From Aureibaculum luteum (GTDB lineage: Bacteria > Bacteroidota > Bacteroidia > Flavobacteriales > Flavobacteriaceae), in the NCBI RefSeq assembly GCF_003449015.1, contig NZ_QRGD01000001.1:886639-950638 (forward strand): a DNA stretch of 64,000 nt, in the 5' to 3' direction. The notes below the pieces were generated by a model. The model was not told the DNA's origin. It was given only the letters and a program-made list of their open reading frames with translations, and did no database searches. A program made the translations under genes and the position numbers. This document shows, piece by piece, positions 2,923-41,791 of the stretch (position 1 is the stretch's first letter; each line of letters starts with the position of its first letter).

Positions 2923-2936
2923 ATGACATTTGTCAT
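2923..2936. promoter_or_regulatory. FNR/CRP-like operator upstream of pckA
   Basis: ATGACATTTGTCAT contains the dyad TGAC-N4-GTCA with 6-bp arms. Its centre (2929.5) is 36.5 bp from the last base of the -7 element, the same distance found at four other promoters in the window. The half-site and 4-bp core spacing match those of FNR/HcpR-type regulators. The regulator's identity is inferred only at family level. Confidence 0.7.
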
Positions 2937-32560: not shown

Positions 32561-32574
32561 CTGACAAAAATCAT
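32561..32574. promoter_or_regulatory. FNR/CRP-like operator of the rnf operon
   Basis: CTGACAAAAATCAT holds TGAC-N4-ATCA. Its reverse complement is identical to the site at 41167-41180. The centre (32567.5) is 36.5 bp upstream of the last base of the -7 element TAATTTTG (32597-32604). No TTG -33 element is present. Confidence 0.72.
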
Positions 32575-32623: not shown

Positions 32624-33052
32624 ATGGGTTCTCAACTAGATAGTAAAAGTACATTTGTACACTCAGGGATAATTTCAAATATAAAGGGCAACGCTATTAT
32701 AGTAACTTTAGAGCAAAATATACATTGTGAATCTTGTCGTGCAAAAGCAGCCTGCGGAATTTCAGAATCCAATACAAAAGAAATTGAAATAATAAACTCT
32801 AGAGATACATTCAAGTTAAATGAGAACGTTAATGTTGTTTTAAAAAAAGCACTGGGTTTAAAGGCTGTGTTTTGGGCATACGTATTTCCCTTCCTAGTAA
32901 TGTTCTCTTCATTAATAATAGCTTCAACTTTTTTAATAGAATGGCAGGCTGGCTTGATTTCAATTCTCGTTTTAATACCTTATTACTTCATTCTTTATGT
33001 TTTAAAAAACACATTTAAAAAAGCTCTAGAAATTTCAATATTAAAAATATAA
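32624..33052 (+). CDS. RseC/MucC family membrane protein, first gene of the rnf operon
   Basis: This 142-residue protein has an N-terminal region with Cys pairs (HCESCRAKAACG, about 31-42) like RseC, then two transmembrane helices (about 82-102 and 108-127). RseC of proteobacteria acts with the Rsx/Rnf complex to keep SoxR reduced. In Bacteroidota and clostridia, homologues commonly head rnf operons, probably as an assembly or electron-transfer accessory. The start lies just downstream of the FNR-like promoter. The rnfB gene follows after 6 bp. Confidence 0.85.
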   Translation: MGSQLDSKSTFVHSGIISNIKGNAIIVTLEQNIHCESCRAKAACGISESNTKEIEIINSRDTFKLNENVNVVLKKALGLKAVFWAYVFPFLVMFSSLIIASTFLIEWQAGLISILVLIPYYFILYVLKNTFKKALEISILKI

Positions 33053-33058
33053 TTAAGA

Positions 33059-33976
33059 ATGACAAATTCAATTTTATATAGTGTTCTTTTATTAGCTTCT
33101 TTAGGAATATTTGCAGCAATAATACTGTATGTAGTTTCTAAAAAATTCTATGTGTATGAAGACCCTTTAATAGCTGATGTAGATGACGTTCTACCCGCTG
33201 CCAATTGTGGTGGCTGTGGTTCTCCTGGTTGTAAGGCTTTTGCTCAGAAACTTGTAAACTCTGATGACATTTCGGAATTATTTTGCCCTGTAGGTGGAAA
33301 CGACGTGATGAAGCTGGTTTCTGAAATTCTAGGAAAAGAAGTTGCCGAGAAAGATCCGACAGTAGCAGTATTACTTTGTCAAGGTGGATGTGACGTACGT
33401 CCAAAAACCACCATATATCAAGGACCAAGAACTTGTTCCATATCAGCCATGGTTTATGGTGGAGAAACAGATTGTCAATACGGCTGTTTAGGTGATGGCG
33501 ATTGTGTTGCGGTATGTGATTTTGATGCCATGTACATGGATGAAAGCACAGGCTTACCTGTAATCATATCTGATAAGTGTACATCATGTGGTGCATGTGT
33601 AAAAGCTTGTCCGAGAGATATTATTGAAATGCGTCCTAAAAATAAAAGGGATCTTAAAATATTTGTCGGTTGTTTAAATGAGGACAAAGGTGGAATCGCT
33701 AAGAAAGCCTGTGATGTTGCTTGTATTGGCTGTTCTAAATGTGAGGATATTTGTCCTAAAGATGCTGTTATAATGACCGGTAATTTAGCATATATAGACC
33801 CCGTTTTATGCACCCTTTGCAGAAAATGTGTAGAGGTTTGTCCTACTCACTCTATTATAGAAACTAATTTTCCTCCAAAAAAGGTAAAAAAACCTAAAGT
33901 AGAAAAACCTAAAGTAGAAAAAGTAGCCGTTGTTAAAGAAAGTGTCGAATCTGTAATTCCTAAAACTGATGCTTAA
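33059..33976 (+). CDS. rnfB: Rnf complex ferredoxin subunit RnfB
   Basis: RnfB is the ferredoxin-interacting iron-sulfur subunit of the membrane Rnf complex, which couples ferredoxin:NAD+ oxidoreduction to Na+ or H+ pumping. At 305 residues it has an N-terminal membrane helix (about 1-25), the CGGCGSPGC Fe-S cluster domain (about 50-58), and several CxxCxxCxxxCP ferredoxin motifs between about 150 and 270 (CTSCGACVKACP, CIGCSKCEDICP, CTLCRKCVEVCP). A Lys-Pro-Val-Glu tail encoded by a tandem 15-bp repeat ends the protein. Its end overlaps rnfC by 8 bp. Confidence 0.95.
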   Translation: MTNSILYSVLLLASLGIFAAIILYVVSKKFYVYEDPLIADVDDVLPAANCGGCGSPGCKAFAQKLVNSDDISELFCPVGGNDVMKLVSEILGKEVAEKDPTVAVLLCQGGCDVRPKTTIYQGPRTCSISAMVYGGETDCQYGCLGDGDCVAVCDFDAMYMDESTGLPVIISDKCTSCGACVKACPRDIIEMRPKNKRDLKIFVGCLNEDKGGIAKKACDVACIGCSKCEDICPKDAVIMTGNLAYIDPVLCTLCRKCVEVCPTHSIIETNFPPKKVKKPKVEKPKVEKVAVVKESVESVIPKTDA

Positions 33977-38146: not shown

Positions 38147-39160
38147 CTATTTTACCTCATAAGTTTCTCCAGAAAAGAACAAATCATTAGTTTTTTTGAA
38201 TTTTGAATTGAATTTTACAGCTGCTGTTAAATCATCTTCTCGTTCTCCTAAAGTAATATCATCAAAACTCCTAATAATTCCTGTAATCAACGGATAATCT
38301 AATCTTACAAGCATTTGGTGAAGAGTTGGGTCAGAGTCTTTTGCGTCGTGAACTAATATATCTTCTTGTGTAACTCCATTTTCTCCTATAGTTACTACTT
38401 CTAATTTCAATTTATTTAATACCAAACCTTTGTCTCGTTCTTTTCCAAAAATCATTGGTTTACCATGTTCAACATATAATTGCTTATCCTCCCTTACTGC
38501 TTTGTCTGTATATTGTGTAAAACAACCATCGTTAAAAATAACACAGTTTTGTAATATTTCGACTAAGGCCGTGCCTTTAAATTTTTCTGATTCAATAAAT
38601 ATAGTAGTCATTTCTTTTGGAGTGTTACCCCCAACCCTGGCAAAGAATCTTGCCCCAGCACCTAAAGCCAATTCTCCTGGAGAAAAAGGAGGCTGTGTAT
38701 TACCATAGGGTGATGATTTTGTTTTTTGTCCCACCAACGAAGTTGGTGAAAATTGCCCTTTGGTCAATCCATAAATTTCATTATTGAAAAGAATTATATT
38801 TAAATCAATATTTCTCCGCAACACATGAATAAAGTGATTTCCTCCAATAGCTAAGCTATCTCCATCACCAGTTATTACCCAAACACTTAGATTCGGATTG
38901 GCCAATTTTACACCAGTGGCAATAGCTGGAGCTCTACCATGAATTCCATGCATACCGTAAGTATCCATATAATATGGAAAACGAGACGAACATCCAATGC
39001 CTGAAATAAAAACGACATCTTCTTTTTTTACTCCCATTTCTGGAAGAGCTTTTTGCATAGAACGTAATATAACGTAGTCATCACAACCTGGACACCATCT
39101 TACTTCCTGATCGCTCGCAAAATCTTTAAATGTATATTGTTTTATAGCTGTTGTTTCCAT
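38147..39160 (-). CDS. korB: 2-oxoacid:ferredoxin oxidoreductase, beta subunit
   Basis: This is the thiamine-diphosphate-binding beta subunit of a 2-oxoacid:ferredoxin oxidoreductase (337 residues). It has CPGCDDY (about 23-29), the GIGCSSRFPYY loop (about 54-64), and the TPP/Mg block GDGDSLAIGGNH (about 97-108). With KorA it converts 2-oxoglutarate (or a related 2-oxoacid) and CoA to the acyl-CoA, CO2 and reduced ferredoxin. Substrate assignment rests on similarity to the KorAB type and is not certain. It is the second gene of the korA-korB unit, separated from korA by 67 bp containing a hairpin. Confidence 0.93.
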   Translation of the reverse strand: METTAIKQYTFKDFASDQEVRWCPGCDDYVILRSMQKALPEMGVKKEDVVFISGIGCSSRFPYYMDTYGMHGIHGRAPAIATGVKLANPNLSVWVITGDGDSLAIGGNHFIHVLRRNIDLNIILFNNEIYGLTKGQFSPTSLVGQKTKSSPYGNTQPPFSPGELALGAGARFFARVGGNTPKEMTTIFIESEKFKGTALVEILQNCVIFNDGCFTQYTDKAVREDKQLYVEHGKPMIFGKERDKGLVLNKLKLEVVTIGENGVTQEDILVHDAKDSDPTLHQMLVRLDYPLITGIIRSFDDITLGEREDDLTAAVKFNSKFKKTNDLFFSGETYEVK

Positions 39161-39206: not shown

Positions 39207-39228
39207 AGACTTGTTCTTTTGCAAGTCT
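39207..39228 (-). other. Intercistronic hairpin between korA and korB
   Basis: AGACTTG (39207-39213) and CAAGTCT (39222-39228) form a 7-bp perfect stem with an 8-nt loop. It starts at the last base of the korA stop codon. It may stabilise or process the korAB transcript, or act as a weak attenuator. Confidence 0.5.
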
Positions 39229-41108
39229 TATTCACTAACACTCACCAATTGTTTAAATTTTTCTGTCAATTCACTATTTGAGAAAGGTAGTCCTTGAATT
39301 TTATTATGTTGTAAGAATTCAAAACCGTTAAAATGAATTCTCAATACATTAACAAACTGACCATTGTTTAATTCGCAAACAATAATTTTCTTAAATTTTT
39401 TAAAAAGATCTTCAGTATTTTTTGGTAATGGATTTATATAATTGAAATGGGCGTAACCAATATTAGTAAAACCATCATCATTAAGTTGTTTTACAGCCGT
39501 ATATAAACTACCATAAGTTCCACCCCAACCTACAACTAGTAAATCACCTTTCTGAGCAAATTCAGATGCTATTTCGGGAATGTAATTTTGTACTCGTTTT
39601 ATTTTTTCCGCCCTTATCTTCGTCATATATTCATGATTTTCTGGAACATAAGAAACATTCCCCGTAACTTTATCTTTTTCTAAACCACCAACTCTATGCT
39701 CTAATCCAGGTGTACCTGGTATTGCCCAATTACGGGCTAAGGATTTTTGGTCTCGATCATAAGGGTGAAAGTTTTCCTTAATCTCTGACACTTTATTATT
39801 TCTGATTTCAGGCATTTCATCTACTGTTTTGATTTTCCAAGGAGCGGAGCCATTTGCAATATAACCATCAGTTAATAATATAACAGGTGTCATGTGTTCT
39901 AAGGCTAATTTTGAAGCTTCGTACGCAAAATTAAAACAGTTAGATGGAGTACTGGCAGCAATTACAATGACAGGACTTTCGCCATTTCTTCCATACATGG
40001 CTTGCAAAAGGTCAGATTGCTCAGTTTTCGTCGGTAAACCTGTTGAAGGACCACCTCTTTGTACATTAACTACAACTAATGGTAACTCTATCATCATTGC
40101 CAATCCTAATGCTTCGCCTTTTAATGCCAAACCAGGCCCAGATGTAGTAGTAATCGCCAAATCACCAGCAAAGGCAGCTCCAATGGCGGAAGAAATCCCT
40201 GCTATTTCATCTTCAGCCTGAAAAGCCTTTACGCCAAAATGTTTATGCTTTACCAATTCATGTAATATATCGGTTGCAGGAGTTATTGGGTAGGAACCTA
40301 AAAATAATTCAAGCCCAGATTTTTCTGCTGCTGCCAAGAACCCCCAAGCTGTGGCAGCATTACCCATGATAATTCTATAAGTACCTGGTGCCATTTTTGC
40401 AGGTACAATAGTATAAGCATTGGGTATTAACTCTAATGTTTCGGCAAAATAGTATCCTGCATTTAAAACCTTGGTATTGGCCTCAATTATTTCAGGTTTT
40501 GATTTGAACTTTTTATTAATGAAATCTATCGTATGCTCTCGAGCACGGTGGTACATCCAATAGACCATACCCAATGCAAACATATTTTTACTTCGGGTAA
40601 TACTTTTATTATCAAGACCATCCACATTTTTTAAAGCCTCTTTGGTTAAGGTAGTCATTCCAACTTCAATAATGCGATAATTTGCAAGACTTCCATCTTC
40701 CAATGGATTGGTTTTATATTGTGCCTTTTCCAAATTCTTTTTTGTAAAAGAGTCTGTATCAACAATAATGGTATGACCAGGTTTTACAGCATATAGATTT
40801 GTTTTTAACCCAGCTGGGTTCATAGCTACCAGCAGGTCAACATCATCTCCAGGTGTATTTATTTCCATACTGCCAATATGAACTTGAAAGCCAGATACAC
40901 CATACAAACTTCCTTGTGGTGCTCTTATTTCTGCGGGATAATTGGGGAATGTAGCTACGTCGTTGCCAAACATGGCCGAAGTATCTGAAAATTGTGTACC
41001 TGTTAACTGCATACCATCACCTGAATCTCCCACAAAACGAATAACTACAGCTTCCAAAACTTCAATTTGACCCTTTGTATTTTTTGCAATTTTATTTTCT
41101 ACATTCAT
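39228..41108 (-). CDS. korA: 2-oxoacid:ferredoxin oxidoreductase, fused gamma-alpha subunit
   Basis: This 626-residue protein fuses an N-terminal gamma domain (about 20-205, with GDSGDGMQLTG near 29-39) to the alpha pyrimidine-binding domain (about 225-600, with LFLGSYPITPATDIL near 269-283 and TTTSGPGLALKGEALG). The fusion is the usual form of KorA in Bacteroidota. It acts with KorB. Its promoter shares one FNR-like dyad (41167-41180) with the divergent ferredoxin gene, and the -7 element is at 41137-41144. The predicted leader is about 24 nt. Confidence 0.94.
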   Translation of the reverse strand: MNVENKIAKNTKGQIEVLEAVVIRFVGDSGDGMQLTGTQFSDTSAMFGNDVATFPNYPAEIRAPQGSLYGVSGFQVHIGSMEINTPGDDVDLLVAMNPAGLKTNLYAVKPGHTIIVDTDSFTKKNLEKAQYKTNPLEDGSLANYRIIEVGMTTLTKEALKNVDGLDNKSITRSKNMFALGMVYWMYHRAREHTIDFINKKFKSKPEIIEANTKVLNAGYYFAETLELIPNAYTIVPAKMAPGTYRIIMGNAATAWGFLAAAEKSGLELFLGSYPITPATDILHELVKHKHFGVKAFQAEDEIAGISSAIGAAFAGDLAITTTSGPGLALKGEALGLAMMIELPLVVVNVQRGGPSTGLPTKTEQSDLLQAMYGRNGESPVIVIAASTPSNCFNFAYEASKLALEHMTPVILLTDGYIANGSAPWKIKTVDEMPEIRNNKVSEIKENFHPYDRDQKSLARNWAIPGTPGLEHRVGGLEKDKVTGNVSYVPENHEYMTKIRAEKIKRVQNYIPEIASEFAQKGDLLVVGWGGTYGSLYTAVKQLNDDGFTNIGYAHFNYINPLPKNTEDLFKKFKKIIVCELNNGQFVNVLRIHFNGFEFLQHNKIQGLPFSNSELTEKFKQLVSVSE

Positions 41109-41136: not shown

Positions 41137-41144
41137 TAAAAATA
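41137..41144 (-). promoter_or_regulatory. -7 element of the korAB promoter
   Basis: On the minus strand this reads TATTTTTA, matching TAnnTTT with A in place of the final G. It is identical to the nifJ -7 element. The last base is 36.5 bp from the centre of the dyad at 41167-41180. Confidence 0.62.
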
Positions 41145-41166
41145 ATTATAGATTATTTCGCAAAAC

Positions 41167-41180
41167 ATGATTTTTGTCAG
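41167..41180. promoter_or_regulatory. FNR/CRP-like operator shared by korAB and ferredoxin promoters
   Basis: ATGATTTTTGTCAG holds TGAT-N4-GTCA. It lies symmetrically between two divergent -7 elements, each 36.5 bp from the dyad centre (41173.5). One bound dimer could therefore activate both promoters at about -41.5. The 14-mer is identical, in reverse complement, to the rnf site. Confidence 0.75.
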
Positions 41181-41202
41181 TAAAAGAGGCTTAAAATTAC
41201 TT

Positions 41203-41210
41203 TAAATTTG
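41203..41210 (+). promoter_or_regulatory. -7 element of the ferredoxin promoter
   Basis: TAAATTTG is a perfect match to TAnnTTTG. Transcription should start near 41215, about 25 nt before the ATG at 41240. No TTG -33 element is seen, since the dyad occupies that region. Confidence 0.7.
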
Positions 41211-41239: not shown

Positions 41240-41590
41240 ATGGCTATTATTATAACAGATGAATGTATAAACTGCGATGCTTGTATAGTAGAGTGTCCTA
41301 ATAATGCAATTTACGAACCAGATCAAGAATGGGCGTTTTCAGACGAAACTGAATTAAGTGGAATGGTTACTACGCTCGATGGAAGACAAGTGGATGCCGA
41401 TGCGTCAAACGAACCAATCTCTGATGAATTTTACTTCATAGCATCTGACAAGTGTACTGAGTGTAAAGGTTTCCATGACGAACCTCAATGTGCAGCAGTC
41501 TGCCCAGTTGATTGTTGTATTCCAGATGAAAACCATGTGGAAACAGAAGAATATTTATTACAGAAAAAAGCTTGGCTTCACGCTGAATAA
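41240..41590 (+). CDS. 2[4Fe-4S] ferredoxin
   Basis: This small soluble electron carrier (116 residues) has a first cluster motif CINCDACIVECP (9-20) and a second with an insertion, CTECKGFHDEPQCAAVCP (about 74-91), as in Allochromatium-type (YfhL-like) ferredoxins. It has an acidic insert between the motifs. It is the obvious electron acceptor for KorAB and NifJ and donor for Rnf, and it is coexpressed with them through the shared operator. It has its own strong terminator. Confidence 0.93.
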   Translation: MAIIITDECINCDACIVECPNNAIYEPDQEWAFSDETELSGMVTTLDGRQVDADASNEPISDEFYFIASDKCTECKGFHDEPQCAAVCPVDCCIPDENHVETEEYLLQKKAWLHAE

Positions 41591-41747: not shown

Positions 41748-41761
41748 ATGATATTTATCAT
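41748..41761. promoter_or_regulatory. FNR/CRP-like operator of nifJ
   Basis: ATGATATTTATCAT is a dyad with TGAT-N4-ATCA, and the arms extend to 7 bp (C...G outside). Its centre (41754.5) is 36.5 bp upstream of the last base of the -7 element at 41784-41791. Confidence 0.73.
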
Positions 41762-41783: not shown

Positions 41784-41791
41784 TATTTTTA
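41784..41791 (+). promoter_or_regulatory. -7 element of nifJ
   Basis: TATTTTTA matches TAnnTTT with a final A, as at korAB. Transcription should start near 41796, leaving a leader of about 124 nt. Confidence 0.6.

Follow-up and report, generated by a model that had tools for sequence, protein, structure and literature searches.

The 64-kb window considered here, the whole stretch of DNA that was analysed, is part of the 5.1-Mb genome of Aureibaculum luteum (the home genome), which belongs to the Flavobacteriales as judged by its relatives; named near relatives include Maribacter and Lutibacter. The window contains divergent genes for a 2-oxoacid:acceptor oxidoreductase and a ferredoxin. The alpha subunit, KorA (626 aa), is encoded on the minus strand at 39228..41108 and scores above the cut-off of TIGR03710, and the beta subunit, KorB (337 aa), is encoded on the same strand at 38147..39160, with TIGR02177 as its best family at 245.9 bits, just below the cut-off of 261.9. 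On the plus strand, 41240..41590 encodes a 116-aa 4Fe-4S dicluster ferredoxin that scores above the cut-off of NF033683 (YfhL family). A palindromic site lies in the spacer between korA and the ferredoxin gene.

This site is a TGA-N6-TCA dyad at 41168..41179, centred at 41173.5 and assigned to no strand. It is a palindrome of the type found at class II sites and is proposed here as a shared operator for an activator of the Crp/Fnr superfamily. Read directly, positions 41167-41180 are ATGATTTTTGTCAG, with the TGA-N6-TCA core inside. The half-sites at korA|ferredoxin follow ATGAY, whereas the half-site consensus of E. coli FNR is TTGAT. Each side of the dyad carries a -7 element of the Bacteroidota type, TAnnTTTG, at a gap of 23: TATTTTTA for korA (41137..41144, minus strand), with five of six consensus bases and a final A rather than G, and TAAATTTG for the ferredoxin gene (41203..41210, plus strand), with all six. 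The two elements are separated by 58 bp with the dyad exactly midway, 36.5 bp from its centre to the far end of either one, so that the equidistance claimed in the original prediction is arithmetically exact on direct reading. The “perfect symmetry” described there applies to these distances and does not extend to the dyad itself, which is imperfect beyond TGA and TCA, having A before TGA in the korA-proximal half and G after TCA in the ferredoxin-proximal half. Because TAnnTTTG spans -12 to -5 in mapped promoters of Flavobacterium psychrophilum (PMC9723704), the dyad would be centred near -41.5 of both predicted starts, that of korA and that of the ferredoxin gene. The corresponding palindromic double-promoter pattern, CAAANNTA-N23-TGAN6TCA-N23-TANNTTTG, is found three times in the window when up to three mismatches are allowed, compared with 0.20 on average over 100 shuffles, and the korA|ferredoxin site departs from it by a single mismatch in 18.

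Comparison of related loci places the dyad under strong constraint. The set comprises 110 ferredoxin loci (L003-L112, home locus L003 included; L001, which is the same place as L003, was dropped, and L002, the home paralogue, was handled apart), and korA lies divergently upstream in 29 of them, again counting the home locus. A further korA spacer, L284, is cut by a contig end and stands outside the 29. The dyad is kept in 28 of these 29 spacers, home counted, a degree of conservation that is decisive for the site being real; the exception, L039, has a spacer reduced to a few tens of bases. Nor is the set made up of copies of one sequence, since the closest two spacers are only 86% identical over the 140 ferredoxin-proximal bases compared and the next pair 83%. 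Positional counts were made on 25 spacers with one usable dyad, excluding L009, L012 and L013, which have more than one, and L039, which has none. L005, with two dyads, is absent from the 24-locus profile and enters the 25-locus counts through its second dyad. The korA-side -7 element, with at least five of six bases, lies at gap 23 in 24 of the 25. L033 is ambiguous on this side, with 5/6 at gap 22 and 4/6 at gap 23, and was treated as 57 bp in the distance count and as gap 23 in the alignment of the korA-side element. On the ferredoxin side, all 25 spacers have a match of at least 5/6 at gap 22 or 23, against a background rate at other gaps of 32 such matches in 1950 places. The original prediction held 58 bp between the -7 elements to be conserved and regarded orthologous spacers lacking the dyad, or varying in length, as evidence against it. 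The distance is 58 bp in 15 of the 25 spacers and 57 bp in the other 10, which rejects exactly 58 bp as an absolute rule, and the exceptions to a shared dyad at one of these two distances are L039, L012, L013 and L009. Among the 57-bp spacers, L051 comes from Lutibacter agarilyticus DSM 29150, and the ambiguous L033 from Maribacter polysiphoniae DSM 23514. As far as aligned spacers can indicate, one dyad at about -41.5 for both predicted promoters is under strong positional constraint.

In the aligned spacers, conservation covers the dyad with its immediate surroundings, each -7 element and, towards korA, one additional element. This element, with consensus AANGTRA, occupies -22 to -16 of korA (41148..41154, minus strand) and is weak in the window, where four of six specified bases match. 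The alignment (L003-L052) holds no counterpart of AANGTRA on the ferredoxin side, and the two promoters therefore need not be equal. Housekeeping promoters of Bacteroidota have a -33 TTG at its usual spacing. This feature is nearly absent here: among 50 promoter sides it is seen five times at spacers of 15-24, and only one of these five falls at 18-22, so that the promoters lack the -33 element of the Bacteroidota type, suggesting that they need an activator. Two wider spacers, L012 and L013, depart from the shared arrangement: in each, korA and the ferredoxin gene are paired with separate dyads, both at a gap of 23 from the respective -7 element. L009 also has two dyads, of which the korA side fits the geometry and the ferredoxin side does not.

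The arrangement does not follow ferredoxin genes in general. Among 81 ferredoxin loci without an adjacent korA, TGAN6TCA is found anywhere in up to 220 bp upstream at only five. Two of these (L038, for which the upstream stretch is 180 bp only, and L042) combine the dyad with a -7 element at the right gap, and their ferredoxins are 82% and 78% identical to that of the window. No dyad is present at unlinked loci L015, L043 and L053, with ferredoxins 71-76% identical, or in the 220 bp upstream of the second ferredoxin gene of the home genome. The idea that the arrangement belongs to ferredoxin genes as such was rejected on these findings, with two cases in 81.

The same spacing between dyad and -7 element is found elsewhere in the window and in the home genome. 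A search of the genome for ATGAN6TCA-N{6,36}-TANNTTTG returns 47 matches compared with 25 for a reversed control. The gap is exactly 23 in 15 of the 47, with four at most at any other of the 31 gaps tried (Poisson P 7e-13); at least two of these 15 lie well inside ORFs. Within the window, a plus-strand dyad at 41749..41760 lies upstream of nifJ (pyruvate:ferredoxin oxidoreductase, TIGR02176), with TATTTTTA (5/6) at 41784-41791 at a gap of 23 counted by eye. A perfect TAAATTTG is also seen downstream of this dyad, at gap 57. Further dyads at gap 23 precede the rnf cluster (32562..32573, plus strand; first ORF at 32624, rnfB at 33059) and pckA, encoding PEP carboxykinase (dyad at 2924..2935, minus strand; gene at 1166-2782). 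Because the rnf cluster and pckA share the dyad at this gap, the window holds more than one member of what is a putative regulon for anaerobic life. Outside the window, dyads at gap 23 precede cytochrome c genes, a radical-SAM hemN-like gene and the nos cluster; an ORF read as nrdD, also behind such a dyad, has no Pfam support.

The full mirror-image pattern recurs as well. With up to three mismatches, CAAANNTA-N23-TGAN6TCA-N23-TANNTTTG is found at 36 places in the home genome, six of them with only one mismatch, against 14 in the control. When no more than one mismatch is allowed and each palindrome is taken once, there are 70 sites in 100 genomes (home included) compared with three for the reversed control, and 35 of the 100 genomes have at least one. 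A script working on mechanically called ORFs places 60 of the 70 between divergent ORFs; the remainder comprise three in coding sequence, four between plus-strand ORFs, one between minus-strand ORFs and two at contig ends. String matching identifies eight hemN|usp pairs, 11 sites with an rrf2-like gene on one side, four fnr|ccoI pairs, five korA|fdx pairs and a further korA cut off at its contig end, and leaves 38 of the 70 pairs with no label on either side. All of these labels (hemN, usp, rrf2-like, fnr, ccoI, korA, fdx) are string matches, which Pfam backs for examples only, in the cases of Rrf2, P-type ATPase, Usp and radical-SAM; FNR-like examples among the symmetric pairs were also checked. 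The fnr|ccoI spacer is symmetric in G017, G027, G034 and G053. Since the predicted symmetric double promoter recurs at other gene pairs, the korA|fdx site is, by this pattern, one instance of a recurrent layout.

Seven proteins of the home genome match HTH_Crp_2, six of them above its cut-off. The best candidate regulator among them is a 228-aa FNR-like protein, whose gene is divergent from that of a P-type ATPase, followed by a cbb3-type oxidase gene. Its domains (PF00027, PF13545 and PF00325) give it the cNMP-binding fold and Crp-type helix-turn-helix of the superfamily, and its recognition helix, GTATESAIRLL, has the E-x3-R spacing through which family members contact DNA. FNR proper senses oxygen through a labile 4Fe-4S cluster that controls its dimerisation, and in E. 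coli this cluster is held by a CxxC-x5-C motif plus a fourth cysteine. The FNR-like protein has the CxxC (Cys4 and Cys7) and Cys106 but no cysteine six residues after Cys7, with Cys53 conserved instead; Cys4, 7, 53 and 106 are conserved in 49 of 51 aligned rows. The home protein accounts for two of these 51 rows (its own and L167), and L215 and L216 are more distantly related. Because the third N-terminal cysteine is absent and the score against NCBIfam Fnr, 87.8 bits, falls far below the cut-off of 228, the protein is called FNR-like rather than FNR proper. This cysteine set, in which the usual N-terminal triple of FNR is replaced, is unusual and is seen across L167-L214. When the first 62 residues of the regulator were compared with solved structures, to place Cys53 relative to E. 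coli FNR, weak matches only were returned. In the home genome, the spacer between the FNR-like gene and the ATPase gene (L152:10327) contains a dyad whose -7 matches lie at gaps of 10/11.

Orthologues of the FNR-like protein, at 46% identity or more, are encoded in 25 of the 29 korA|fdx genomes, the G015 copy being a fragment at a contig end. They are absent from the genomes of L012 and L013, which are listed as 100% complete, and from those of L039 and L041, which are drafts. In three of these four genomes the dyad is split or lost, and L041 keeps a normal dyad; L009 has its atypical ferredoxin side although its genome encodes the FNR-like protein. The coincidence of regulator absence with a split or lost dyad is thus suggestive only. 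Two further Crp-type proteins of the home genome, of 351 and 356 aa (L150:13274-14329 and L153:8711-9781), are receiver-Crp hybrids, response regulators in which a receiver domain is fused to a DNA-binding end of Crp type. They have the helix TATExxIR, like that of the FNR-like protein, and may share sites with it. Their genes adjoin ORFs read as putative PAS-type kinases, and the dyads around them appear by eye to have a C/G-richer centre.

The observed sequence, conservation, spacing and recurrence of the site, together with the presence of the regulator, point to the dyad as a shared class II-type operator, from which an FNR-like dimer at low oxygen would activate korAB and the ferredoxin gene at about -41.5 of each (probability roughly 0.8). 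A dimer of the Crp/Fnr superfamily, likeliest the FNR-like protein whose gene neighbours those of the cbb3 oxidase, would bind the dyad when oxygen is scarce, occupy the place of the missing -33 elements of both promoters and replace their contacts, and recruit RNA polymerase in either direction from a position of about -41.5, with 57 or 58 bp between the -7 elements. As a result, korAB and the ferredoxin gene would be switched on in the same condition. Binding itself, activation rather than repression, oxygen as the signal and the service of both directions by one dimer are each predicted from sequence in this model. FNR-activated promoters of E. coli with a known start offer a precedent, with 19 of 23 sites at -41.5 ± 4 (PMC3688515). 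Weighing against the model are the ferredoxin promoter of L009, which does not fit even though that genome has the FNR orthologue, the dyads of L012 and L013 in genomes without the orthologue, the similar recognition helix of the receiver-Crp hybrids, the dyad-less ferredoxin loci L015, L043 and L053, and the low score of the regulator against NCBIfam Fnr. The original prediction held that a single dimer drives both genes and locks their production together. The placement of the dyad at about -41.5 for both agrees with this proposal, and “drives” and “locks” are better reduced to shared on/off control, which is likely and does not imply a fixed output ratio.

Several other readings of the site can be weighed against this one. 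That the dyad is a chance palindrome might be entertained for so short a motif in A+T-rich DNA, but it is rejected, with a negligible likelihood, by the conservation in 28 of 29 spacers, by the unlinked loci (five of 81 with any dyad, two with the right -7) and by the genome count of 70 symmetric sites to three. A repressor site blocking both promoters is very improbable. The dyad does overlap the expected place of both -33 elements, and the dyad of the home fnr|ATPase spacer, given its -7 matches at gaps 10/11, sits in a repressing-type place. Repression would not, however, require a strict gap of 22 or 23, the single -33 TTG among 50 promoter sides at spacers of 18-22 suggests the need for an activator, and the companion genes of the dyads have anaerobic functions. 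It is considerably less unlikely, though still improbable, that the operator and geometry are as described and the main binder is a receiver-Crp hybrid, answering a kinase instead of oxygen directly. The two hybrid genes of the home genome, with their FNR-like recognition helix, fit such an arrangement, as do the dyads in the L012 and L013 genomes, which have no FNR orthologue and contain Crp-like frames of 350-360 aa (likely hybrids by length alone), and G005, which likewise has no FNR orthologue yet has two symmetric double promoters. The dyads of L012 and L013 do indicate that another regulator can use such sites. Against a hybrid as main binder are the presence of the FNR-like protein in 25 of 29 korA|fdx genomes, the finding that L039, the sole spacer without a dyad, belongs to a draft genome without this protein, and the A+T-rich centres of the korA|fdx dyads, compared by eye with the C/G-centred ones at several dyads beside the hybrid clusters. 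The FNR-like protein is the likeliest candidate for the binder of the korA|fdx dyad.

A different question is whether the dimer serves its promoters in turn, the contacts of one polymerase excluding the other, such that the promoters compete and their ratio is not locked. This has somewhat less than an even chance of being correct. The C-terminal domain of the RNA polymerase alpha subunit contacts DNA at about -60, and, given a site at -41.5 of each promoter, that contact for one promoter corresponds to about -23 of the other; alternation is plausible because the upstream contact of one polymerase would then fall inside the other promoter. Competition is also favoured by the separate dyads of the wider L012 and L013 spacers and by the extra conserved element on the korA side. 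On the other hand, a single shared dyad is retained in 25 of the 28 dyad-bearing spacers, and any competition must therefore be tolerable.

The proposed layout bears some resemblance to established systems. At araC|araBAD, one CRP site serves two divergent genes at unequal distances from their promoters. The korA|fdx spacer likewise has one putative Crp-family site for two divergent genes, but at distances that are the same or 1 bp apart. Bidirectional promoters can also arise from symmetric -10 elements that overlap or lie close together. The likeness to korA|fdx is that DNA symmetry would give rise to divergent transcription; the difference is that the symmetry here is that of a proposed operator with two -7 elements 57/58 bp apart. 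Class II sites of E. coli, such as those of dmsA, narG, nirB, nrfA and others, have their dyad centre at -41.5 (± 1) relative to the start (PMC3688515). The korA|fdx dyad resembles these class II FNR and CRP promoters in its predicted -41.5 placement, and differs from them in that one dyad faces two back-to-back Bacteroidota promoters, with TAnnTTTG and hardly any -33. The TAnnTTTG -7 element is shared with the sigma-A promoters of F. psychrophilum (PMC9723704); that study, in which the cbb3 oxidase is up-regulated when oxygen is limiting, has no occurrence of Fnr or Crp in its main text. Class II activation, which depends on the bound protein touching RNA polymerase, is already known, and so are operators shared by divergent genes. 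Within the open-licence literature, no description of an FNR regulon in Flavobacteriaceae or Bacteroidota was found, nor any pair of promoters with a single FNR/CRP site at class II distance from each, nor any earlier case in which such a layout, with equal distances, is conserved and recurs throughout a bacterial family.

These sites raise the question of whether two polymerases, each with the activator at -41.5, can be served by the same dimer, and pose it at dozens of natural sites, with the 57- and 58-bp spacings and the natural split variants as controls. A broader reading, tentative and somewhat doubtful, is that a pair of bare -7 elements, spaced by about 58 bp and with a Crp/Fnr dimer midway, constitutes a standard two-way anaerobic switch of Flavobacteriaceae, in which the dimer would hand polymerase to either side and set the ratio as well as the on-state, and into which FNR-like proteins and receiver-Crp hybrids could both plug; korA|fdx, hemN|usp, rrf2-adjacent and fnr|ccoI sites would all be cases of it. 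The dyad geometry itself offers a rule, readable from sequence, for how genes of this family are controlled without oxygen, and it ties a regulator with unusual cysteines to a concrete set of likely targets: 2-oxoacid:ferredoxin oxidoreductases, Rnf, PEP carboxykinase, cytochromes and the N2O reductase cluster.
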